From an uncultured PS1 clade bacterium (lineage in GTDB: Bacteria > Pseudomonadota > Gammaproteobacteria > PS1 > Pseudothioglobaceae): a stretch of DNA of 35,494 nt. The DNA lies in contig CALKDH010000107.1 in the NCBI GenBank assembly GCA_938086805.1, positions 1 to 35,494 of the forward strand. Reading direction: 5' to 3'. The notes below the pieces were generated by a model, which searched no databases, was not told the DNA's origin, and saw nothing but the letters and a program-made list of their open reading frames with translations. This document shows positions 1 through 26,918 of this stretch, piece by piece. The stretch's first letter is position 1. Each line of letters opens with the position of its first letter. A program made the position numbers and the translations under genes.

Positions 1-855
1 TTTGTTTTCCTCGCCAACTAGATAGCCAATTGCTCCACTTTCTTCACCATAACTCATGACGCAAGTAGGGCATGCATGAATACCAATTTTATGTTCAATT
101 GATAGAGCTTTTAAATCATTTGAATCGCCAAGCGTGCCATCATTATTGACCAATATCTTAGGCACCAAAAATAAGGAAATGCCTTTAATTCCTTGTGGAG
201 CATCAGGCAGGCGAGCCAAGACTAAGTGAATAATATTCTCGGCCATATCATGCTCACCCCAAGTGATGTAGATTTTTTGTCCACGAATTAAGTAATGGTC
301 ACCATTAGGCGTGGCTTTAGTTTTAAGCGAACCAACATCAGTGCCAGCATCACCTTCAGTAAGGTTCATTGTTCCACTCCATTCGCCTGAAATTAGTTTA
401 GGGAGGTAGCGCTCTTTAAGCTCTTCGCTTGCATTCAGAGTGATTGCTTCAACAGCTCCTTGAGTAAGCAGAGGGCAAAGACCCCAAGACATATTAGCAG
501 AGTGCCACATTTCTTGAACACTTGCAGCGACGACAAACGGGACGCCCTGACCTCCATAGGTAGGTGAGAATTGGAGTGAACCCCAGCCTCCTTCAACGAA
601 GTGCTGATAGGCTTCTTTAAAGCCAGCTGCAGTAGTAACTTTTCCTGAGTCGTCTATTTTTAAGCCTTCAGAGTCGCCAGGCTTATTGATTGGCTCTATT
701 TCCTCTTTTGCAAGCTTTCCGGCAGCTTCTAAGACGGTGTCAAGAATTTCAACTGTGGAGCCATCTAAACCAGTCTCATTACATAGTTTTTCAAGCTCAA
801 CAACTTCTTTCAATACAAAACCCATGTCTTCAACAGGCGCAGTATAGTTTGACAT
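1..855 (-). CDS. acyl-CoA dehydrogenase, DmdC/FadE-like (C-terminus lies beyond the left edge)
   Basis: Open minus-strand frame from the ATG at 855 to the window edge. Translates as MSNYTAPVEDMGFVLKEVVELEKLCNETGLDGS...GGQGVPFVV...MNLTEGDAGTDVGSLKT..., typical of the large acyl-CoA dehydrogenases annotated as 3-methylmercaptopropionyl-CoA dehydrogenase. Start overlaps the upstream stop by 1 nt (TAATG). Not in the ORF track because it runs off the edge. Confidence 0.85.
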   Translation of the reverse strand, partial: MSNYTAPVEDMGFVLKEVVELEKLCNETGLDGSTVEILDTVLEAAGKLAKEEIEPINKPGDSEGLKIDDSGKVTTAAGFKEAYQHFVEGGWGSLQFSPTYGGQGVPFVVAASVQEMWHSANMSWGLCPLLTQGAVEAITLNASEELKERYLPKLISGEWSGTMNLTEGDAGTDVGSLKTKATPNGDHYLIRGQKIYITWGEHDMAENIIHLVLARLPDAPQGIKGISLFLVPKILVNNDGTLGDSNDLKALSIEHKIGIHACPTCVMSYGEESGAIGYLVGEENK

Positions 856-2468
856 TACTCTCCTCCCAGGCTCTTAACTGAAGCCCTAAGCTCGTGCTTT
901 TGAATTTTCCCAGTTGCGGTTTTTGGAAGCGGACCAAAAACAACTTTTTTAGGCCGTTTAAACTTTGCCATATTGTCTTTACAAAAAGCTATAAGTTCAG
1001 CTTCAGAAGCTTCTTGACTAGGTTTGAGCTCAACAAAGGCACAAGGTACCTCCCCCCAGGTTTCGTCATCCATTGCAACAACTGCAGCCTCCCCAACTGA
1101 CGGGTGTTGATAAAGAACATTTTCAACCTCAACAGATGAAATGTTCTCTCCACCTGAAATGATAATATCCTTTGACCTGTCTTTAATCTGTATATAACCA
1201 TCATTATGAATGACTGCAAGATCGCCACTATGAAACCAGTCATCAGCAAAAGCCTCTTTTGTTGCCTCGGGATTATTCCAATAGCCCATCATACAGGTAT
1301 TGCAGCGTATCACAATCTCACCAATTGTTTCCCCATCATGGGGGACGCGATCACCAGTGTCCTGATCTATTACGCTAACATCCTCAGTCATAGGAAATCT
1401 AACCCCTTGTCTTGAGCTAAGTCTGGCAAGCTCTGCTGGGCTTTCATTCAGCCATGAGGCTTGTGGGGCAGCTTGAAGAATGTGACCATAGGTTTCTGTA
1501 AGGCCATATACATGCATAACGTTGAACCCAAGGGACATCATGCTTTCTAGAACTTTTGCAGGAGGAGGGGCGCCAGCGGTCATGACTTTGATTTCTCTAT
1601 CGAATGATTTTTTAATTTCCTCAGGAGCGTTGGCAAGCATATTGAGCATAATCGGAGCGCCACCAAAATGAGTCACATGATATTCATCAAGTAAGGCAAA
1701 TACTTTTTGTGGATCGAAAGATCTAAGGCAAACCACAGTGCCAGCGAGTGCAGCCATTGTCCAGGCGTGCCCCCACCCGTTGCAATGAAATAGAGGAACG
1801 GAGTAAAGGTAAATAGGGTGGTTAGGGAGGTTCCAGCCCACCACGGTGCCCATACTCATTAAATAGGAGCCACGATGATGATAGACAACGCCTTTAGGTT
1901 TTCCTGTTGTTCCAGAGGTATAGCTTAATGACAGAGGGCTCCATTCATCACTTGGCATGTTCCAGTCATAAAGTGGATCACCCTGGTCAACAAGTGACTC
2001 GTAGTCTACTATGTCACCTGAAACATCTGGAGCTGAGCCAGCAAAAGAGTCGTTAATTAAAACAATTTTTGGACTAACTGAGGCGATCGATAGCGCCTCA
2101 GAAGCAACTCCATAAAGCTCCCTATCAACAAAGAGAATTTTTGCATTGCTGTCATCAAAAATGTAGGCAATTGTTGGCGCGTCAAGCCTTATATTTATCG
2201 TGTTTAATATAGCTCCTGCCATTGGGATAGAAAAGTGCGATTCAAACATTTCTGGAGTATTGAATGCTAATACTGAAATCGTATCACCTGGCTCAACTCC
2301 AAAGCCATTAAGGCTTGAGGCAACTCTAACACATCTCTCTCTAGTCTGACTCCAGTTATATGACCTATCTTCATATATGACTGACTTATAGTCGCCATAA
2401 ATATCAGCAGTTCTATGTAAAAAAGAGATAGGAGTAAGGGGGACAAAATTAGCAGGGTTTTTGTTCAT
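855..2468 (-). CDS. AMP-dependent acyl-CoA synthetase, DmdB-like (medium-chain / 3-methylmercaptopropionate-CoA ligase family)
   Basis: 537 aa with the AMP-binding motif SLSYTSGTTGKPKGV, VYGLTETYG, GYWNNPEAT and the C-terminal PKTATGKIQKHELR. Confidence 0.85.
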   Translation of the reverse strand: MNKNPANFVPLTPISFLHRTADIYGDYKSVIYEDRSYNWSQTRERCVRVASSLNGFGVEPGDTISVLAFNTPEMFESHFSIPMAGAILNTINIRLDAPTIAYIFDDSNAKILFVDRELYGVASEALSIASVSPKIVLINDSFAGSAPDVSGDIVDYESLVDQGDPLYDWNMPSDEWSPLSLSYTSGTTGKPKGVVYHHRGSYLMSMGTVVGWNLPNHPIYLYSVPLFHCNGWGHAWTMAALAGTVVCLRSFDPQKVFALLDEYHVTHFGGAPIMLNMLANAPEEIKKSFDREIKVMTAGAPPPAKVLESMMSLGFNVMHVYGLTETYGHILQAAPQASWLNESPAELARLSSRQGVRFPMTEDVSVIDQDTGDRVPHDGETIGEIVIRCNTCMMGYWNNPEATKEAFADDWFHSGDLAVIHNDGYIQIKDRSKDIIISGGENISSVEVENVLYQHPSVGEAAVVAMDDETWGEVPCAFVELKPSQEASEAELIAFCKDNMAKFKRPKKVVFGPLPKTATGKIQKHELRASVKSLGGE

Positions 2469-2479
2469 TGGCTTAACTG

Positions 2480-4774
2480 TTAATTTCTTAGAGTAATGCC
2501 ATTATCTAGCATGGCAACAATTCTTGCTTGAGTTTCTTGAGTTTGGGCAAGCCTAATAAATGAGGAGCGTTCAGCATTTAAAATATCTTGCTCAGAAAAA
2601 ACTGTCCCTGCTGGACACTCTCCACCAGACATTATTCTTCCAATTTCAGTTCCAACAGTAACGTCATGTGGGGTAAGCATGCCTTTTTCATGGTTTACTT
2701 CAAGCCACTCTAGCATTTCTTGATAATGTTCAGATCCTGAAAGAGCAAGCGGCCTTCTTTCGCCAACTTTTTTTGTTTTATCTATTGACGCAAGAGCGGC
2801 ATTTAATATTCGATCCCGGTTCATTTGAAAAGTATCACTAGGTCTGCTCATAGATAAAGCGAAAGCCTCTTGTGGTGAGTTGGCTTTTCTTCCAAGCCCA
2901 ATATTCATAAATGATTTCCATGCACCTTTCTGAGTGTCATTAAGTTTTTCTGTCCATCGATAAAGCATCTCTTTACAGCCGCCACCTGCAGGGACTACAC
3001 CAACAAAAGACTCAACAAGGCCCATCACAGAGTTGGCATGACTGATAACATGATCTGCATGTAATACAACCTCAAAGCCACCCCCGATAGACATACCAAC
3101 AGGTGCAGCTATAACGGGTAGGCTAGAGTCTCTCATTTGAAGCATCGTGTTTTGAAAATAGGCAAGAAAATCATCAAGACCATCAAAGTCATTTTTTTCG
3201 AAACAGTTTCTAACACTCCAGAGGCTAACACCACAAGAAAAATGTTGAAAGTCATTGTGAATTATTACTCCTCTCAGGCCTTTATTTTCAGAGGAAGTGA
3301 CTGCATCGGATATCATATCTAGGCTCTGACTGTCGAGAGCGTTTGCTTTTGAGTGGAACTCCACAATAGCTGCACCCTCATATTCAAACCAACTAGCGGA
3401 CTCATTTGAGTTGATTGGAGCCAGAGTTTGCCGCGCCTCAGAGAATCGAAGAACACCTTTTGGCCTGACAATAGGCTTCAGTTCGCTAGAAATAGTTAGA
3501 GTGCTCAAGATTGAATTCGAGCTAGTATAAAACTTATTATTTAGGCTTTTTTCAAGAAAGTCAGGCACATCTTTTGAGCTAGTTTTAAGTCTTTTAACAA
3601 AGTAATTGATGCCAATTTCATCAATTAATTCAAAAGGCCCTTTCACCCAGTTATAGCCCAGCTTCATTGCGTCATCAATTTGGGTTACATCTTCAGTAAC
3701 TTCAGGCACTAGTGAGGCCGCATAGGATAAAGTTTCAGAAAGCACATCCCAGATAAAGAGGCCATAGCTGCTTTGGTCGCTAAGGATGGAAGTTACTCCA
3801 TTTTTTTCAGCATCTTCTAGGAGTGAAGTTTTGAGGCGCTTATGTTCAACATAGTTTCCAGTGGACAGATCTATTACCATTTTCTCATCATCAATCTGCT
3901 TATAAAAACCCTGATCATTTTTATTTCCAGTTTGACCATTGGCGATCATGTTGGATACAAACTCTATTGGCGCAGCATACTTATGAAATGCGTCATTTTC
4001 TGGCAAGATATTTTCGAGGCTTTTTGCCACGTCAGCCATTAGGTCAATACCAATTAGGTCGTAGAGTCCAAAAACTCCTGTTTTGGGAAGGCCAAGCGGT
4101 CTCCCAAAAAAAGCATCGGCTTCGGTTGGAGAGAGTTTGTATTCAAATGCCTTATGAAGGGCACACTGAATTGCAAAAACACCCACTCTGTTTGCAAGAA
4201 AGCCAGGCGTGTCTGAGCAAGGCACAACGCCTTTGCCAAGCTTGGTTTCGCAGAAAAAATCAAGCGTCTCCATCACATCTTCTTTGGTCTGCCCACCCCT
4301 GACTAGCTCTAGCAGTCTCATAAAGCGAACTGGATTAAAGAAATGAGTAATGGCAAAGCGCTCACAAAAGTCTTGAGGCATACCCTCAGTTAATAAACTA
4401 ATTGGAATAGTTGAGGTGTTAGAAGTAATGATGGTAGATTTTTTGCAGTTTTCATGAAGTTTTTTGTAGAGAGCTTTTTTAATGTCAAGTCTTTCGACGA
4501 CAGCTTCAGCAATCCAGTCGCATTCACTGAGCTCATGAAAATTATCTCTTGTATTGCCAAGATGTATAAGATCTTCAGCTTCTTTACTCATAATGCCTGG
4601 CATGTCGGGATCTTTGAGTCTCTCTAATCCTCTTAGGGCGAGGCTGTTTACATTTTCACCTTCAGTAGGAAGGTCTAGCAACCAAACCTCTATTCCTGCA
4701 TTAGCAACTTGGCCAGCAATGCCAGCACCCATCGTACCGGCGCCAATGACGCCAACTTTTATAATTTTATTCAT
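2480..4774 (-). CDS. 3-hydroxyacyl-CoA dehydrogenase / enoyl-CoA hydratase bifunctional protein (FadN-type domain order)
   Basis: 764 aa. N-terminal Rossmann GVIGAGTMGAGIAGQ and ITHFFNPVRFMRLLELV (HCDH). C-terminal crotonase fold with HFSCGVSLW, GGGFEVVLHADHVISHANSVMGLVESFVGVVPAGGGCKEML. Confidence 0.9.
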   Translation of the reverse strand: MNKIIKVGVIGAGTMGAGIAGQVANAGIEVWLLDLPTEGENVNSLALRGLERLKDPDMPGIMSKEAEDLIHLGNTRDNFHELSECDWIAEAVVERLDIKKALYKKLHENCKKSTIITSNTSTIPISLLTEGMPQDFCERFAITHFFNPVRFMRLLELVRGGQTKEDVMETLDFFCETKLGKGVVPCSDTPGFLANRVGVFAIQCALHKAFEYKLSPTEADAFFGRPLGLPKTGVFGLYDLIGIDLMADVAKSLENILPENDAFHKYAAPIEFVSNMIANGQTGNKNDQGFYKQIDDEKMVIDLSTGNYVEHKRLKTSLLEDAEKNGVTSILSDQSSYGLFIWDVLSETLSYAASLVPEVTEDVTQIDDAMKLGYNWVKGPFELIDEIGINYFVKRLKTSSKDVPDFLEKSLNNKFYTSSNSILSTLTISSELKPIVRPKGVLRFSEARQTLAPINSNESASWFEYEGAAIVEFHSKANALDSQSLDMISDAVTSSENKGLRGVIIHNDFQHFSCGVSLWSVRNCFEKNDFDGLDDFLAYFQNTMLQMRDSSLPVIAAPVGMSIGGGFEVVLHADHVISHANSVMGLVESFVGVVPAGGGCKEMLYRWTEKLNDTQKGAWKSFMNIGLGRKANSPQEAFALSMSRPSDTFQMNRDRILNAALASIDKTKKVGERRPLALSGSEHYQEMLEWLEVNHEKGMLTPHDVTVGTEIGRIMSGGECPAGTVFSEQDILNAERSSFIRLAQTQETQARIVAMLDNGITLRN

Positions 4775-5562
4775 GGGTTTGTTTTTAAAATAAATGATTT
4801 AATGGCGTCCAAAGTGCTCTTTGGGGCCTCTATTGGAAGCATATGCCCTGCGCCAGAAATAGTTGTAGTTTCTGCTCCTAAAAGCTCTGCAAGCTCTAAT
4901 CCAAATGTGTATGGAGTGTTTTTGTCTTCTGTTGCCACAATAACGTTTGAGGGGGCTTTAATATTTTTCGCACAGTTTATTCCGTTCTTATATTTGTTGC
5001 AAGCTAATAGGTCCTCAGCCAAAGGATTTGATGACATAATTTGACGCCCAATGCCAATTGGCTGCATTCCAGGCACTGCACTACTGCCTGAATGGGATCG
5101 AGATCCAAAGCCCCACCTCAACAGCATATCAGCAGCATCTTTTGTATTTTTCTGAGCAGTCTCAACAAGCGATTCATTCACAGGGATTGCTGAGGCACTA
5201 GCAACAGCAGTTAGAGATTTTAATTTGTCTTCTAAAAGAATAGCGGCTTCAAGGGCCACAAGAAAGCCCTGCGAATGGCCAACCAAGTGGATGTTTTCCG
5301 CTCCAGAGTGTTTAATAGCTTTAACTAGCCATTTGCCCATGCTTTCAATCGACTTGAGAGGCTCTCCTTCTGACAAGCTGTGTCCAGGCAAATCAGGCGC
5401 TAATACAGAGAAGCCATGAAATGCAAACCATCTAGCCTGGAGCGCCCATGATCTATGATCGAGACCACTTCCGTGGACAAAAACCACGGTCGGCTTTTTT
5501 GGATCAAATGCACAGCCCCCAGTGGCCACAAAAATATTTACTCCATCAACGACAATATTCAT
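4771..5562 (-). CDS. alpha/beta hydrolase
   Basis: 263 aa with VVFVHGSGLDHRSW, nucleophile elbow GHSQG and C-terminal GAGHMLPIEAP. 4-nt overlap with the next gene. Confidence 0.85.
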   Translation of the reverse strand: MNIVVDGVNIFVATGGCAFDPKKPTVVFVHGSGLDHRSWALQARWFAFHGFSVLAPDLPGHSLSEGEPLKSIESMGKWLVKAIKHSGAENIHLVGHSQGFLVALEAAILLEDKLKSLTAVASASAIPVNESLVETAQKNTKDAADMLLRWGFGSRSHSGSSAVPGMQPIGIGRQIMSSNPLAEDLLACNKYKNGINCAKNIKAPSNVIVATEDKNTPYTFGLELAELLGAETTTISGAGHMLPIEAPKSTLDAIKSFILKTNP

Positions 5563-6863
5563 TACGCAGTTGCCTTTTCTACTGCCTTTAGACCAACTTT
5601 AAAATCATTGATGATGTCATTAACAGATTCGATTCCAACTGACACTCTAATTAAGTCAGGGCTTGTTCCAGAAGCCTTCATCGCCTCATCATCTAGTCGC
5701 GAGTGAGTTGTGCTTGCAGGGTGAAGAACGAGTGTTCTTGAGTCACCTACATTAGCTAAATTTGATGCTAACTTAACAGAGTTAATAAATGCAGCCCCTC
5801 CTTCTCTTCCTCCTTTAACACCAAAGCATAACATTGATCCAGCGCCATTCGGAAAGAGCTCTTTTGCAATGTCGAAGGTAGGGTTTTCAGGAAGGTCAGG
5901 ATGGTTAACCCACATTACTGCAGACTGTTCCAGCAACCACTTTGCGAGCTTGATTGCATTTTTTACATGTTGGTTCATTCGAAGATTAAGAGTTTCAATG
6001 CCCTGAAGAAGTAAAAAAGCACTGTGAGGGCTCATGGCTGGGCCAAAGTCACGCATAGACTCCGCTCTAATTTTCATTGAAAGGGCTGAAGGTCCAAATT
6101 CCTCCCAGAAGTTTATTCCATGGAATGGCTCATAAGGCGTAGTAAGCTCAGGATGCTTGTTAGCAGCGCCCCAGTCAAAAGCCCCGCCATCAACAATGAC
6201 CCCCCCTACAGCTACTCCATGCCCCCCAATCCATTTTGTAACAGAGTGCACTACAACATCGGCTCCATGATCAAATGGCTTACAAAGCGCTGGTGTTGCA
6301 AATGTGGCGTCAATAACAAGAGGAAGGTTGTTTTGATGAGCAATATTTGAAATTTTGGGGAGGTTTGATACCTCTAATCCGGGGTTGCCAATCGACTCAC
6401 AAAAGACGAGTTTAGTGTTTTCCTGTATGGCTGCTTTAAGAGCTTTTTCGTCATTAATGGAGACGAAAGTACAGTCAATATTAAATCTTTTAAGGGTGTG
6501 TCTAAGAAGTGTCGCAGTTGAGCCATAGATTTGTGAGGCACTGACAATATGATCACCAGCAGAACAAAGGCTGACAAAAGTAACAAAAAGCGCACTCATG
6601 CCTGAGGCTGTACAAATTGCCCCAACACCTCCCTCTAGGGCAGCAATACGCTGCTCTAAAACGGCAACTGTAGGGTTGGTCATTCTGCTATAAATATGAC
6701 CGCCCTTTTCAATATTGAAAAGTGCAGCGGCATCATCAACAGTTTCGAAAACATACGAGGTAGTTTGATAAACAGGGACAGCCCTACTTCCAAATGAAGG
6801 GTCTGGCTCATATCCTGAATGAAGTGATATTGTTTCAGGGCCTAAGAACGAGGACTTTCCCAT
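5562..6863 (-). CDS. metY: O-acetylhomoserine sulfhydrylase (aminocarboxypropyltransferase), Cys/Met-metabolism PLP enzyme
   Basis: 433 aa with ETISLHSGYEPDPSFGSRAVPVYQTTSYVFE, YSRMTNPTVAVLEQRIAALEGG and the PLP-Lys region VVVHSVTKWIGGHGVAVGG. Confidence 0.9.
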   Translation of the reverse strand: MGKSSFLGPETISLHSGYEPDPSFGSRAVPVYQTTSYVFETVDDAAALFNIEKGGHIYSRMTNPTVAVLEQRIAALEGGVGAICTASGMSALFVTFVSLCSAGDHIVSASQIYGSTATLLRHTLKRFNIDCTFVSINDEKALKAAIQENTKLVFCESIGNPGLEVSNLPKISNIAHQNNLPLVIDATFATPALCKPFDHGADVVVHSVTKWIGGHGVAVGGVIVDGGAFDWGAANKHPELTTPYEPFHGINFWEEFGPSALSMKIRAESMRDFGPAMSPHSAFLLLQGIETLNLRMNQHVKNAIKLAKWLLEQSAVMWVNHPDLPENPTFDIAKELFPNGAGSMLCFGVKGGREGGAAFINSVKLASNLANVGDSRTLVLHPASTTHSRLDDEAMKASGTSPDLIRVSVGIESVNDIINDFKVGLKAVEKATA

Positions 6864-21196: not shown

Positions 21197-22093
21197 ATGA
21201 ACTCTAAATTAATACCTTGGATTTTTGTATGGATATGGAGTACAGGCTTTATTGCAGCAAAATATGGGCTAGCGTTTGCCGAGCCTTTTACTTTGTTGAT
21301 GTATCGGAATTTTTTGACGCTTTTACTACTATTTTTCATAATTCATGTCAAAAAAAGTCCTTGGCCAAATTCTAAGCGGCAGTTTGCTCATCTTATGGTG
21401 GTAGGTGTCCTTATTCATGGAGTTTACTTGGGCGGTGTTTTTCAAGCAATCCAATGGGGGATGCCAGCAGGTTTAAGTTCTATGGTTATTGGACTACAGC
21501 CTCTGGGTATGGCTCTTATGGCTGGAATTATTTTAAAAGAGCAGGTGTCCAAAAGGCAGTGGATTGGGCTAATTATAGGACTCATAGGCTTATACTTAGT
21601 TTTATTTGACAGGATAGATTTAACAAATGAGCTTTTATTTGATGGTTTTTCCATTTGGGCAGTATTTGCCGTCATAGCTTCTTTGCTTGCAATTTCTATT
21701 GGTGCGGTGTATCAAAAAAGATTTTGCAATGATATGGACTTAATTAGTGGGACATGGGTTCAATATTTTAGCGCTTTGCTATTATGTGCTTTCATTTCTG
21801 TTTTTTTTGAAGCTGGAGATATAGCCTGGACAAAGCCTTTTATATTGACCTTGGCATGGCAAGTGCTTGCACTTTCAGTTGGAGCAATTTTCTTGTTAAT
21901 GACAATGATTAAACAGGGCGCTGCCGCGAAGGTTGGAAGTTATTTTTATTTGGTTGCACCCTTAGTTACAGTTCAGGCCTGGTTTTTATTTGACGAGACG
22001 ATAGGTATAAGCGCTCTGGCAGGGATTATCCTAATTTCTTTTGGCGTTGCAATAACGACGTCACGAAATTTATTTAAAAATATCCAAAGTTAG
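21197..22093 (+). CDS. EamA/DMT-family membrane transporter
   Basis: 298 aa hydrophobic protein with two EamA-like repeats (IPWIFVWIWSTGFIAAKYGL...; ...QWIGLIIGLIGLYLVL...; GTWVQYFSALLLC...). Confidence 0.85.
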   Translation: MNSKLIPWIFVWIWSTGFIAAKYGLAFAEPFTLLMYRNFLTLLLLFFIIHVKKSPWPNSKRQFAHLMVVGVLIHGVYLGGVFQAIQWGMPAGLSSMVIGLQPLGMALMAGIILKEQVSKRQWIGLIIGLIGLYLVLFDRIDLTNELLFDGFSIWAVFAVIASLLAISIGAVYQKRFCNDMDLISGTWVQYFSALLLCAFISVFFEAGDIAWTKPFILTLAWQVLALSVGAIFLLMTMIKQGAAAKVGSYFYLVAPLVTVQAWFLFDETIGISALAGIILISFGVAITTSRNLFKNIQS

Positions 22094-22470
22094 AGTTCAC
22101 CAGCCTCTTCTAAAATAACTCTGGCAATTTTAAAACACTCAACGCCTTGGGGAACTCCACAATAGATTGCAATAACATGCAGGATTGATTTGATTTCACT
22201 GACGCTAACTCCATTCGTTAATGCCCCTTTTAAATGAACTTCAAACTCATCCATTTTTCCAAGAGCTGCAAGCATAGTGAGATTCATCATTGATCTAGTT
22301 TTGGCATCAATTGTGTCGTCACCCCATCCAAAACCCCAGCACCACTCAGTCATTTGTTTTTGAAAGTCTTCATTGAATTCATCGGCAGAGTCCAAATTTT
22401 TTTCTACATATTCCTTTCCAAGCGTAGCCTTCCTTTTTGATAGTCCGAGTTCAAATAGTTTTTTATCCAT
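22090..22470 (-). CDS. carboxymuconolactone decarboxylase family protein
   Basis: 126 aa with DAKTRSMMNLTMLAALGKMDEFEVHLKGALTNGVSVSEIKSILHVIAIYCGVPQGVECFK, a PcaC-like fold pattern. Confidence 0.85.
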   Translation of the reverse strand: MDKKLFELGLSKRKATLGKEYVEKNLDSADEFNEDFQKQMTEWCWGFGWGDDTIDAKTRSMMNLTMLAALGKMDEFEVHLKGALTNGVSVSEIKSILHVIAIYCGVPQGVECFKIARVILEEAGEL

Positions 22471-22502
22471 AATTTACTCCAGTCATGTAGGTTAAGAAAT
22501 TT

Positions 22503-23972
22503 TTACCTCATTATAAATGGATTACTCATAGGCTCAGAAGAGGTATTAATCCATGTTGTCTTAGTCCGGGTGTATTCATGAATTGCATCAATTCCTGCCT
22601 CACGACTTCCACCACTTTGCTTGACGCCTCCAAAAGGAGAAATTGGTGATATTGCTCTGTAGGTATTAATCCAAACAATTCCTGAGTGAATCTTTGCACT
22701 AACGCGATGGGCTCTTGCTAAGTTTTCAGTAAATACGCCAGACCCAAGACCATAGTCAGAGTCATTAGCCATGGCTATTGCCTCCTCCTCTGTGTCGAAT
22801 GCAATAACGCTGATAACTGGGGCAAAGAGTTCAGTTTTAACACAGTCAAAATCTTGGGTTGGGCAGTCTAGAAGAGTGGGCTCAAAATACCAACCTTCTT
22901 TTTGTTGGCTAGGTTTCTTGCCGCCAAAAACTAAATTAGCTCCTTGTTTCACAGAGTTGTTAATCACTTTTGAGGCTCTTTCAATTTGATGAAGTGTTGC
23001 TAGAGGCCCCACCTGAGTTTTGCTATCAAGCGGATCCCCAACAACAATACTTTTCGCTCTTTGCTTAATGAGCTCGATGACTTTTGAGTGAATCGAGCGG
23101 TGAATTAAAACTCTTGAGCCGGCAACACAGCTTTGTCCAGAAGCTCCAAAGTTGCCAGCAATGATTCCATTAACAGCACCATCAATATTGCAATCCTCAA
23201 AAATAATCATAGGTGATTTTCCACCTAACTCCAAGCTGACATGAGCAAAGTTTTCTGCACTATTCCTTACAATATGTCTGGCTACTTCTGTGCCACCGGT
23301 AAAAGCAATTCTCGCAACTTTAGGGTGTGTAGTTAGAGTTTTGCCACATGGATCTGCAAACCCAGTAATGATGTTGATTACGCCTGGTGGAAATCCACAT
23401 TCATCAACCAATTCAGCAAATTTAAATAATGCAGCTGGAGCTTGCTCTGAAGCCTTAATAACAACAGTATTTCCTGCAGCTAATGCTGGAGCAATCTTAG
23501 TAGCAGAGAGAAATAATTGTGCATTCCAAGGGACTATTGCAACAACAACACCGATAGGCTCACGTGTTGTAAATACCTGCATGTCTGGCTTGTCAATTGG
23601 GAGAACCTCGCCTTGAATTTTATCAGCTAGACCGGCATAGTAATAATAATAGTCTGCAACATAACTAGACTGGGCTCTTGTTTCAACTGCTAGCTTGCCG
23701 CTGTCTTTTGTTTCTAGTTCTCCAAGTATGTTCGCATTATCAGCGATTAAATTGCCAAGCCTATGGATTAATTTCCCCCTTTGTGTCGCATTAAGTGTTG
23801 ACCACTCACCTTCATAAAGGGCTGAGTAAGCAGACTCAATAGCTAAGTTTGATTCTTCTTGAGAGGCGGCAGGAAAGGTTGCCCATGGTTTGCCATTAGC
23901 AGGATTTATTGTTTCGAATTTTTCTGAGCCTTCAGAAAATTTTCCATTTATGTAGTGCTTGTAATGTTTCAT
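22503..23972 (-). CDS. NAD(P)-dependent aldehyde dehydrogenase
   Basis: 489 aa with IVPWNAQLFLSATKIAPALAAGNTVVIKASEQAP, LELGGKSP, catalytic Cys in ASGQSCVAGSR and PFGGVKQSGGSREAG. Confidence 0.93.
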   Translation of the reverse strand: MKHYKHYINGKFSEGSEKFETINPANGKPWATFPAASQEESNLAIESAYSALYEGEWSTLNATQRGKLIHRLGNLIADNANILGELETKDSGKLAVETRAQSSYVADYYYYYAGLADKIQGEVLPIDKPDMQVFTTREPIGVVVAIVPWNAQLFLSATKIAPALAAGNTVVIKASEQAPAALFKFAELVDECGFPPGVINIITGFADPCGKTLTTHPKVARIAFTGGTEVARHIVRNSAENFAHVSLELGGKSPMIIFEDCNIDGAVNGIIAGNFGASGQSCVAGSRVLIHRSIHSKVIELIKQRAKSIVVGDPLDSKTQVGPLATLHQIERASKVINNSVKQGANLVFGGKKPSQQKEGWYFEPTLLDCPTQDFDCVKTELFAPVISVIAFDTEEEAIAMANDSDYGLGSGVFTENLARAHRVSAKIHSGIVWINTYRAISPISPFGGVKQSGGSREAGIDAIHEYTRTKTTWINTSSEPMSNPFIMR

Positions 23973-23983
23973 AATAGACCCAA

Positions 23984-25021
23984 TTAATTAAATGCAGGCA
24001 TAACCTTTTCTATAAAAAGCTCAAGTGATTTCTTTTTTGTTTCAAAGTCCATACTGCTATCAATCCAGTAGCTATATTCATCATAACCAAGCTCTTCGCA
24101 AAATTTGATTCTTTTGATTACCTCTTCAGGAGAGCCAATGATGCTGTTTTTACGCATATTTTCTGGAGAGTACATCTCAAGGTTATCCATTTCTTCTTCG
24201 GAAAGCTTTTGCATCAAGCCCTGCTCAACAGGGCGTTCATTTTTGAACCAAGCTCCAAAGTAACAATAAAAACGTGAGATGTCTTTAGCGCCCTGCAGGA
24301 TTTCTTCTTCAGTTTCGGCTACAAAAGTATGGCGTAAAACCATAATTTTAGGTCGCTTGATATCTTTATGTTTCTTGCATGCAATATTAAATTTTTCCAT
24401 AAGGGATGAAACCTCTTCATCTCCTAACCACAGGGGCGTTACTTGAACATTGCAGCCTTCTTTTAATGCAAAATCATGAGAGTTTTGATCTCTAGCTGCA
24501 ATCCAAATTGGTGGGTTTGGAGATTGTTGCGGTTTTGGAGAGCTAGTCGTTTTTGGGAAGGACCAATGCTCACCTTCACCAGTATAATCGCCTTTCCATA
24601 ACGCTTTAATTGCTGGCACAATTTCCCTCAGCGCATTGCCTGCTGAAAAAGGATCCATGCCATCAGCTAAGCGTTCATATTCAAAAGAGTAAGCTCCTCT
24701 TGCAATTCCGAGCTCAAGTCTTCCGCCTGAAATGATATCAGTCATCGCTGCCTCTTCTGCAAGTTTAATTGGATGCCAAAAGGGAGCAATAATTGTTCCT
24801 GTTCCAAGTCTGACATTTTGGGTTTTATTTGCTAAGTCAGTCAGATTAACAAACGGGTTGGGCGCAATGGTAAAGTTCATGCCGTGATGCTCACCATTCC
24901 AAATTGTTTTAAAGCCAGACCTATCAGCTATTTGACAGAGTTCAACAAACTCATCATATAATCTTTTTTGTGACTGCTCCTCGTCAATCCTTTCCATGTG
25001 AGCAAATAAAGAAAAATCCAT
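23984..25021 (-). CDS. luciferase-like flavin-dependent monooxygenase (LLM, bacterial luciferase family)
   Basis: 345 aa with MDFSLFAHMERID, FKTIWNGEHHGMNFTIAPNPFVNLTDLANKTQNVRLGTGTIIAPFWHPIKLAEEAAMTDIISGGRLELGIARGA and IIGSPEEVIKRI. Confidence 0.92.
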   Translation of the reverse strand: MDFSLFAHMERIDEEQSQKRLYDEFVELCQIADRSGFKTIWNGEHHGMNFTIAPNPFVNLTDLANKTQNVRLGTGTIIAPFWHPIKLAEEAAMTDIISGGRLELGIARGAYSFEYERLADGMDPFSAGNALREIVPAIKALWKGDYTGEGEHWSFPKTTSSPKPQQSPNPPIWIAARDQNSHDFALKEGCNVQVTPLWLGDEEVSSLMEKFNIACKKHKDIKRPKIMVLRHTFVAETEEEILQGAKDISRFYCYFGAWFKNERPVEQGLMQKLSEEEMDNLEMYSPENMRKNSIIGSPEEVIKRIKFCEELGYDEYSYWIDSSMDFETKKKSLELFIEKVMPAFN

Positions 25022-25048
25022 ATCAATTTGTCCTATTAGTTTTTAATA

Positions 25049-25984
25049 TTATTTTTTGCTTATAGCTTCTACCTTGCCTTCGCTTTCTTTGCCAACAAAG
25101 ATTCCAAATGCATTCAATTCCCTTTCTTTAATATATCTTTTAAGCATTATTCTACTCGCTTCATCACTAAGTTTGTCAAATGGAATATCATCAAATGGAT
25201 AAAAGTAATCATCCATGTCTTCCAACGCCTCTTTAACCTGAGCACGGTAGTAAATTAAACTGGTTTTATCCTCAGCTTTTTCAAACACTGAAAAGAGATA
25301 ATGCTCATTAATTGATATTTTAAGATTTTTAAGAATTCCCAGAAGGCTATCATTGTCATCAATGTGACCTAGCCTAGAGGCCGATGGAAAGTAGAGCGAT
25401 TTATTTGTCTTATCTTTCAGTAAAAAAACTTTTTTGTGCCATTCTATTATTGCTCCAACAACTATCTTAGTATTTTCATTTTCCATCGCCAAGAGCATTT
25501 TTTGTTCAAGTCCAAGGTTGACATAGTTTCCTCTAAGATACATTAAGGGAGTCTTTGGACTGCTATCAAAGGCAATAATTTCCCCAATAAGAATCAAGTG
25601 ATCTCCCGCATCAATTACTTGCCGAGTGTTGCAATCAAACCAGGCAACTGCGTTCTCAATAATTGGACTTCCAGTATCCTCAGTCCTCCATTCCACATTT
25701 TGGAATCGATCCTCATTAGGAGTTGCAAAGGTAGTTGAAATTGATTGTTGGTCCTCAGAAAGAACGCTTACAGCGAAATGCTTAGTGATAGAGAATGAAT
25801 CAATATTGAATGATTCTTTGTCAATGCAAATTGAAATAAGCTGAGGATCTAAAGAGACAGATGTAAATGAATTAGCTGTAAAGCCTAAAGGGTTTTTATT
25901 TTTATCTAGACAAGAAACTACTGTAACTCCAGTTGGGAAAGACCCTAATGCTTGCCTTAAATTTCTTGTTTTGTCTTTATTCAT
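25049..25984 (-). CDS. flavin reductase (FMN-binding split barrel) with extra C-terminal Nudix-like domain
   Basis: 311 aa. Residues ~1-160 are flavin reductase-like (LRQALGSFPTGVTVVSCLDKNKNPLGFTANSFTSVSLDPQLISICIDKES...FDCNTRQVIDAGDHLILIGEI). Residues ~170-300 form a separate domain. 8-nt overlap with the upstream gene. Confidence 0.88.
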   Translation of the reverse strand: MNKDKTRNLRQALGSFPTGVTVVSCLDKNKNPLGFTANSFTSVSLDPQLISICIDKESFNIDSFSITKHFAVSVLSEDQQSISTTFATPNEDRFQNVEWRTEDTGSPIIENAVAWFDCNTRQVIDAGDHLILIGEIIAFDSSPKTPLMYLRGNYVNLGLEQKMLLAMENENTKIVVGAIIEWHKKVFLLKDKTNKSLYFPSASRLGHIDDNDSLLGILKNLKISINEHYLFSVFEKAEDKTSLIYYRAQVKEALEDMDDYFYPFDDIPFDKLSDEASRIMLKRYIKERELNAFGIFVGKESEGKVEAISKK

Positions 25985-26852
25985 TTTCTTCTAAAAAGTT
26001 TTTAATTAACATGTTTACTTTTTCAGGCGCAATGAATGCCATCATATGCGCCTCATTTTCTATACTTTTTGAGAGGCCCTTGGGAGATTCTTTCGCCATT
26101 TCACTGGACATTTTTGAATTAGAGTTTGGATCATCACCTCCAGTTAAGTATAGTACAGGCATGCTTAAATTGCCAAGCAAATTTTCAAAGATATAATCCG
26201 ACTTTGCAAACAGTTTATAAGCGTCCCCATAGCCTTTGGGAGAAGCGCCCAGTAAAAGTTGACGAACCATATTTACTTTTATGATTTGATCAGGTTGAGT
26301 TTTATTTTTAAACCACCTACTCAATGTTTGCTCAATATTACCTATTTGCCCTGTCGTTAAAATCTTGTTTGCACGCTCTAAAACCTCTTTTCTTGCATTT
26401 AAAGACCTTTTGTAAACAATATTTAAGGGAATTAAGCATTTAACTTTATCTTGATATTTAAGACCAAATGCCACAGAGATAATTGCCCCCATAGAGTGTC
26501 CAATTAGAGAGAAAGAAGAGATGCCTAGTGATTCAACTAAATCATTTAGTTGCTCGACATAGTCTTTGATTGTAGGCGTTTGGCTAGAAGGTGGTGTTAG
26601 GCCATGACCCAGAAAGTCGTATGTGACAACCATATATTTCTTAGAAAAGTATTCAACTTGGGGGTGCCATATTTCACTGCATAAGCCGACGCCATGAATA
26701 AAAATAAGACAGTGGCCTTCTGAGCCATAAACAGAATAATGTGTGTTTGTCTTAGTAAAAAGACTGGTTGATCGGTCTGAATTATTGATTCTCAAGTCGC
26801 TCATAGGGTAGCTAGGTATTAATGTTATTAGATTAACCTTATGGGCACACAC
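25977..26852 (-). CDS. alpha/beta hydrolase
   Basis: CLIFIHGVGLCSEIWHPQVEYF, nucleophile elbow LIGHSMGAI and C-terminal ENEAHMMAFIAPEKVN. The track start is a GTG at 26852; the ATG at 26804 (MSDLRINNSDRS...) may be the true start. Confidence 0.88.
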   Translation of the reverse strand: MCAHKVNLITLIPSYPMSDLRINNSDRSTSLFTKTNTHYSVYGSEGHCLIFIHGVGLCSEIWHPQVEYFSKKYMVVTYDFLGHGLTPPSSQTPTIKDYVEQLNDLVESLGISSFSLIGHSMGAIISVAFGLKYQDKVKCLIPLNIVYKRSLNARKEVLERANKILTTGQIGNIEQTLSRWFKNKTQPDQIIKVNMVRQLLLGASPKGYGDAYKLFAKSDYIFENLLGNLSMPVLYLTGGDDPNSNSKMSSEMAKESPKGLSKSIENEAHMMAFIAPEKVNMLIKNFLEENE

Positions 26853-26889
26853 CTTTTTTTCTCACTGCCTGCCGACTTGAGCTAGGAGG

Positions 26890-26918
26890 AATATAGAGTA
26901 TTAGCTCTTTGCTGTCAA
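26890..26918 (-). promoter_or_regulatory. Predicted sigma70 promoter of the hydrolase/LLM operon (TTGACA-N17-TATATT)
   Basis: Minus strand: TTGACA (26918-26913), 17-nt spacer, TATATT (26895-26890), just upstream of the operon's first gene. Confidence 0.7.

Follow-up and report, generated by a model that had tools for sequence, protein, structure and literature searches.

The window analysed here, a stretch of 35,494 nt from the genome of an uncultured bacterium whose assembly (1.13 Mb) is 70% complete, carries five closely spaced minus-strand genes, which encode, in the order of transcription, an alpha/beta hydrolase, a flavin reductase, a luciferase-like monooxygenase (LLM), an aldehyde dehydrogenase and a carboxymuconolactone-decarboxylase-like protein (CMD), and which are preceded by a predicted promoter and a conserved 38-nt element (Table 1). 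Within the SUP05 clade of marine gammaproteobacteria, the host is assigned, in part from named gammaproteobacterial relatives, to the PS1/Arctic96BD-19 lineage. Members of this lineage occur widely in the ocean, and a cultured representative is 'Ca. Thioglobus singularis' PS1 (PMC4616169). All five open reading frames were present with the coordinates and order given in the initial annotation, and the families named there were borne out, all of them exceeding the Pfam cut-offs: PF00561 (alpha/beta hydrolase), PF01613 (Flavin_Reduct), PF00296 (Bac_luciferase), PF00171 (Aldedh) and PF02627 (CMD). As for the span of 22090-26852 assigned to the block, the gene positions held but the hydrolase start did not, since in close relatives nothing upstream of ATG 26804 could serve as an in-frame start, and this ATG is thus the probable start instead of GTG 26852. 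The hydrolase gene shares 8 nt with the reductase gene. On the plus strand lies an EamA-type transporter gene (21197-22093), which overlaps the CMD gene end to end and is found beside the operon in many, not all, congeners. Elsewhere in the window, a single minus-strand run (1-6863) encodes an acyl-CoA dehydrogenase, an acyl-CoA synthetase, a FadB-like protein, an alpha/beta hydrolase and an O-acetylhomoserine sulfhydrylase; methylthiopropionate use was considered for this run, but the corresponding ligase model scored far under its cut-off.

Table 1. Position of the operon genes and upstream elements in the window, with the basis of each assignment
Feature	Position	Strand	Basis
Promoter TTGACA-17-TATATT	26890..26918	-	11/12 consensus matches; hexamers and spacing kept across the genus
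38-nt leader element, CTCAAGTCGGCAGGCAGTGAG-A-rich-GGTGTGTGCC	26844..26881	-	On the predicted transcription start or immediately downstream of it
Alpha/beta hydrolase, TgnD-like (putative step 3)	25977..26804	-	37% to A. baylyi-cluster hydrolase
Flavin reductase, TgnA-like, with extra C-terminal domain	25049..25984	-	PF01613; 3rh7 match; 34% to A. baylyi
LLM flavin-dependent monooxygenase, TgnB-like putative ring-opening oxygenase	23984..25021	-	67% to A. baylyi; tree
Aldehyde dehydrogenase, TgnC-like	22503..23972	-	56% to A. baylyi; catalytic Glu and Cys motifs
CMD (PcaC-like) protein, subfamily known from tgn clusters	22090..22470	-	45% to A. baylyi-cluster copy

With proteins of Acinetobacter trigonelline clusters the LLM shares 66-67% identity, 67% being the value for A. 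baylyi, whose reference locus here is that of the type strain DSM 14961 and not of strain ADP1 itself; one Acinetobacter plasmid record among the matches carries the names tgnA, tgnB and tgnC. Comparison with tgnB-type proteins gave about 480-520 bits, as against at most 86 bits with solved luciferase-like proteins, and all 25 NCBIfam LLM models among the matches listed scored below their curated cut-offs, by which alkanal luciferase, sulfone/DMS and F420-dependent identities were ruled out. In the tree, whose final version was built without long-branch joins, the genus and two alphaproteobacterial MAGs grouped together as sister to the tgnB proteins, that of A. baylyi included (support 94/95), and both groups together excluded the 58% and 40% relatives. 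The test set in the initial annotation, namely whether the LLM would fall with the alkanal, DMS or F420 families, therefore came out negative, and the suggestion that the operon may open a pyridinium betaine or N-heterocycle ring is supported and sharpened, the four Tgn-type enzyme genes being all adjacent. Nevertheless, the columns at least 97% constant among tgnB proteins do not pin the substrate, since the window LLM keeps 138 of these 152 and the full-length 58% relative still keeps 133 (92-94 in the 40% relatives). Genus-specific changes were found at the nearly invariant tgnB positions 42, 89, 120 and 125. The tgnB-like LLM genes of the two alphaproteobacterial MAGs that group with the genus (L065:9965-11832, and L070) have no reductase, dehydrogenase or PF06684 neighbours. 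A second LLM in the window's own genome (contig C111, 8734-9705), 26-28% identical, lies beside another alpha/beta hydrolase gene, and in one congener (L132:3235-6369, genome G008) genes for another LLM, a GST, a SnoaL-like protein and a hydrolase follow directly after the operon.

The intact catalytic motifs initially noted in the dehydrogenase and the hydrolase were confirmed. The aldehyde dehydrogenase, 56% identical to the TgnC-type protein of A. baylyi, keeps ELGGK (Glu) and GQSC (Cys), and the hydrolase triad S104/D225/H253 (numbered from ATG 26804) is invariant in a 14-member alignment. The hydrolase is 37% identical to that found at the same gene position in the A. baylyi cluster and the reductase 34% to its counterpart, each forming a lineage of its own in the respective tree. 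Median identities to the tgn clusters were 38% for the reductase and 34% for the hydrolase, compared with 51% and 55% within those clusters. The reductase carries the PF01613 domain in its N-terminal half and matches the solved protein 3rh7, which we take to be of S. meliloti type, over its full length, C-terminal domain included. As regards the hydrolase, its profile matches the alpha-(N-acetylaminomethylene)succinate hydrolase 3kxp, whose substrate closely resembles the one proposed below, although the best solved relative is a 3-oxoadipate enol-lactonase.

The CMD had at first been placed outside the tgn logic, a view which does not hold at the genomic level: a CMD gene lies near the LLM gene in 21 of the 84 comparison clusters, that of A. 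baylyi (45% identity to the window protein) among them. CMD is thus a recurrent member of tgn clusters, and its presence as a foreign gene was ruled out. Its gene follows that for the succinic-semialdehyde dehydrogenase (SSADH) in Acinetobacter, Xanthomonas and Lampropedia, while in marine Rhodobacterales, where the protein is 66-73% identical to that of the window, it lies upstream of the GntR gene. The score against the PcaC model TIGR02425 was 118.8 bits, below the cut-off of 155.7. The protein may possibly decarboxylate a formylsuccinate-like intermediate, and its linkage to tgn genes points to a decarboxylation step that is either missing or accelerated.

Beyond the window, the LLM is present in 24 of the 28 other congeners and in two sister-genus genomes, the four congeners without it being 54-89% complete. 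The gene order hydrolase, reductase, LLM, dehydrogenase, CMD was constant in all 20 genus or family loci inspected, two of which are cut by contig ends. Since this order is kept while the flanking genes vary, the arrangement is more than chance; the synteny comparison proposed in the initial annotation thus finds the block retained through the genus in differing surroundings. In the wider class, an LLM match at 1e-100 occurred in only 4 of 368 other genomes.

As to the rest of the pathway, a relative of the Acinetobacter-cluster SSADH (57-61% identity) is encoded, unlinked to the operon, in 7 of 8 genus genomes, and was not found in the window's own assembly, 70% complete. The PF06684 protein, present in 81 of the 84 comparison clusters, is likewise encoded by an unlinked gene in all eight genus genomes (63-75% identity to type-1 tgn-linked copies) and is absent from 14 control genomes; at L174:2562-4387 this tgn-type gene sits with cupin and phytanoyl-CoA-dioxygenase-like genes, away from the operon. 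A glutamine-synthetase type III/GmaS-like gene exceeded its cut-off in seven of the eight genomes, that of the window included, and in one of them (G006) its neighbours are consistent with N-methylglutamate synthase. The absence of a dedicated transporter or regulator next to the operon, as initially described, stands for the neighbourhood, with the converging EamA-type gene as noted above. No GntR (TgnR-like) regulator, which is a regulatory and not a catalytic feature of the Tgn pathway, adjoins the operon in the loci inspected; genome-wide, the best matches were of 21-27% identity, with none at 1e-8 in the two single-contig genomes. Moreover, no good counterpart of the cytosine-permease transporter of tgn clusters was found in the genus, and their ABC binding protein has relatives there of only 31-35% identity.

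Homology, synteny, conserved catalytic residues and the downstream genes of congeners were all observed, and it is from these that we infer each reaction, the substrate and the role of the CMD. Judged by sequence, this is probably a trigonelline-type (Tgn-like) catabolic operon of PS1-clade marine gammaproteobacteria, with trigonelline, a metabolite of plants and algae, or a close pyridinium betaine as the likely substrate. In the proposed pathway, the LLM oxygenase would receive reduced flavin from the reductase and would cleave the N-methylpyridinium ring directly; the aldehyde dehydrogenase would oxidise the resulting hydroxybutyrolactone to N-methylformamido-methylene succinate, and the hydrolase would split the latter into methylamine, formate, CO2 and succinic semialdehyde, a step in which the CMD might assist decarboxylation. 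Succinic semialdehyde would then reach the TCA cycle through the unlinked dehydrogenase, and methylamine would be assimilated through a GmaS-type pathway. The steps after ring opening are reportedly those described by Perchat et al. in 2018. The marine relevance is illustrated by Ruegeria pomeroyi, which grew better on trigonelline than on homarine (PMC8269262). The divergent reductase and hydrolase, the lack of a TgnR-like regulator and of a cytosine permease, and the SSADH missing from this assembly count against the model.

The same divergence, together with the genus-specific changes in the LLM, would also suit an operon applying this chemistry to a different N-heterocycle, be it homarine, another N-methylpyridinium carboxylate or unmethylated pyridine, and a related cluster whose LLM is only 40% identical has the same five gene kinds. 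For homarine in particular, its abundance far outweighs that of trigonelline in North Pacific samples (PMC8269262). Against this stand the high identity of the LLM to tgnB and the steric argument by which TgnA and TgnB, which open the trigonelline ring, are unlikely to open that of homarine (PMC8269262). A substrate of this other kind is considered unlikely. Far less probable still, to the point of being hardly tenable, is that the operon forms part of a beta-ketoadipate-like aromatic route, with a hydrolase and a CMD resembling PcaD and PcaC. Both proteins do match PcaDC-type models, and the enol-lactonase relationship of the hydrolase profile points the same way, but the scores lie under the curated cut-offs, the operon has no dioxygenase or cycloisomerase, and the LLM, reductase and dehydrogenase are tgn-like. 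The trigonelline-type assignment is thus preferred.

Upstream of the hydrolase gene, the TTGACA-17-TATATT promoter is common to the genus, with the same hexamers and spacing in the alignment, while by count alone promoter-like sites show no excess in the region. About 8 nt after it begins the leader element, in which CTCAAGTCGGCAGGCAGTGAG is joined to GGTGTGTGCC by 7-9 nt of A-rich linker. It was found in 23 of 23 assembled genus leaders, as one copy per genome and solely before the Tgn-like operon (the contigs of genomes G011 and G018 stop short of it), and the four congeners without an LLM match also lack it. Mean pairwise identity in ten-base windows was 0.92-0.97 within the element and mostly 0.38-0.66 outside, the promoter excepted, with 0.38-0.55 for most of the flanks. 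The leader reached 0.96, compared with 0.55, 0.70, 0.91 and 0.93 for the best 38-nt stretch upstream of dsbD, eamA, nadK and grpE, respectively (12-genome subsets for the last three); the values of nadK and grpE imply that strong upstream conservation alone is not unique to the leader. A short coding ORF was ruled out, since linkers differing by 1-2 nt would put it out of frame, and a general genus repeat by the single copy per genome. Searches of the other tgn clusters and, under strict filters, of a further 368 genomes of the class and about 398 of the phylum gave no convincing match, the sole partial one scoring 21.8 bits, and none was found in viral contigs.

The leader was unmatched by the Rfam 15 covariance models even at a permissive threshold, and the only match listed for the window was a chance-level sRNA match outside the leader. 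Two structures can be drawn. In the hairpin, GGCA and GCA pair with UGU and UGCC; the alternative is an H-type pseudoknot with CUCA/UGAG and GGCA/UGCC. Pairing is kept in 96.6% of cells for the hairpin and 98.9% for the pseudoknot; neither is backed by covariation, because no pair changes on both sides and the columns hardly vary. The isolated 38-mer folds better than its shuffles (z -2.84), and an 82-nt stretch no better than shuffles.

Control of the operon probably acts via this element instead of a linked GntR repressor. The element may be a leader RNA and, possibly, a riboswitch. In its most specific form, the proposal is that the genus possesses a new metabolite-sensing RNA of its own, folded as a small pseudoknot or as a hairpin, with an A-rich segment joining its parts. 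Its ligand would be trigonelline, a different pyridinium betaine or an intermediate of the pathway, and in this streamlined ocean bacterium the RNA would have taken over from the GntR repressor; thus detailed, the proposal is doubtful. A DNA operator bound by a transcription factor, to which we give somewhat less than an even chance, concerns regulation only and is independent of the enzymology. The position at the predicted transcription start, a frequent repressor site, the lack of compensatory base changes and the conserved stretches before grpE and nadK in 12 loci all agree with it; nevertheless, a linker varying between 7 and 9 nt would shift the helical phase of the two conserved blocks, no full dyad is obvious, and the 38-mer folds better than shuffles, though longer leader stretches do not.

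Homology and synteny thus give good support to a putative variant of the Tgn-type operon, which is accompanied by a leader element specific to the genus. What is new is the combination of no linked TgnR-like regulator or typical transporter with a near-invariant 38-nt element before the operon, a compact candidate for RNA control in place of a repressor. The nearly genus-wide occurrence of the operon predicts that a pyridinium betaine supplies PS1 bacteria with carbon, nitrogen and C1 units; a literature search outside subscription journals found no paper joining the PS1 clade with trigonelline.

Compared with known systems, the tgn cluster of A. baylyi has the hydrolase, reductase, LLM oxygenase and dehydrogenase in the same order as the PS1 operon, and also a CMD, while its SSADH and PF06684 counterparts are unlinked in PS1 congeners. 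In PS1, by contrast, no gene for a GntR regulator, a PF06684 protein, an SSADH or a permease is linked to the operon, the CMD lies inside it, the reductase and hydrolase have diverged, and there is a genus-specific leader element. The order hydrolase, reductase, LLM (63%) and dehydrogenase is also that of the Sinorhizobium meliloti pSymA cluster beside noeA/noeB (L182; also L181) which, unlike that of PS1, has GntR, PF06684, NIPSNAP, ABC transporter and SSADH genes, with no CMD seen. In a Mesorhizobium ciceri locus (L136:6205-8004), the hydrolase and flavin reductase are fused in one gene, adjoining an LLM 58% identical to that of the window. Finally, the cluster of M. ciceri WSM1284 (L137) contains the same five gene kinds as the PS1 operon, CMD included, but with an LLM of only 40% identity, a different gene order and an amino-acid-type ABC transporter.
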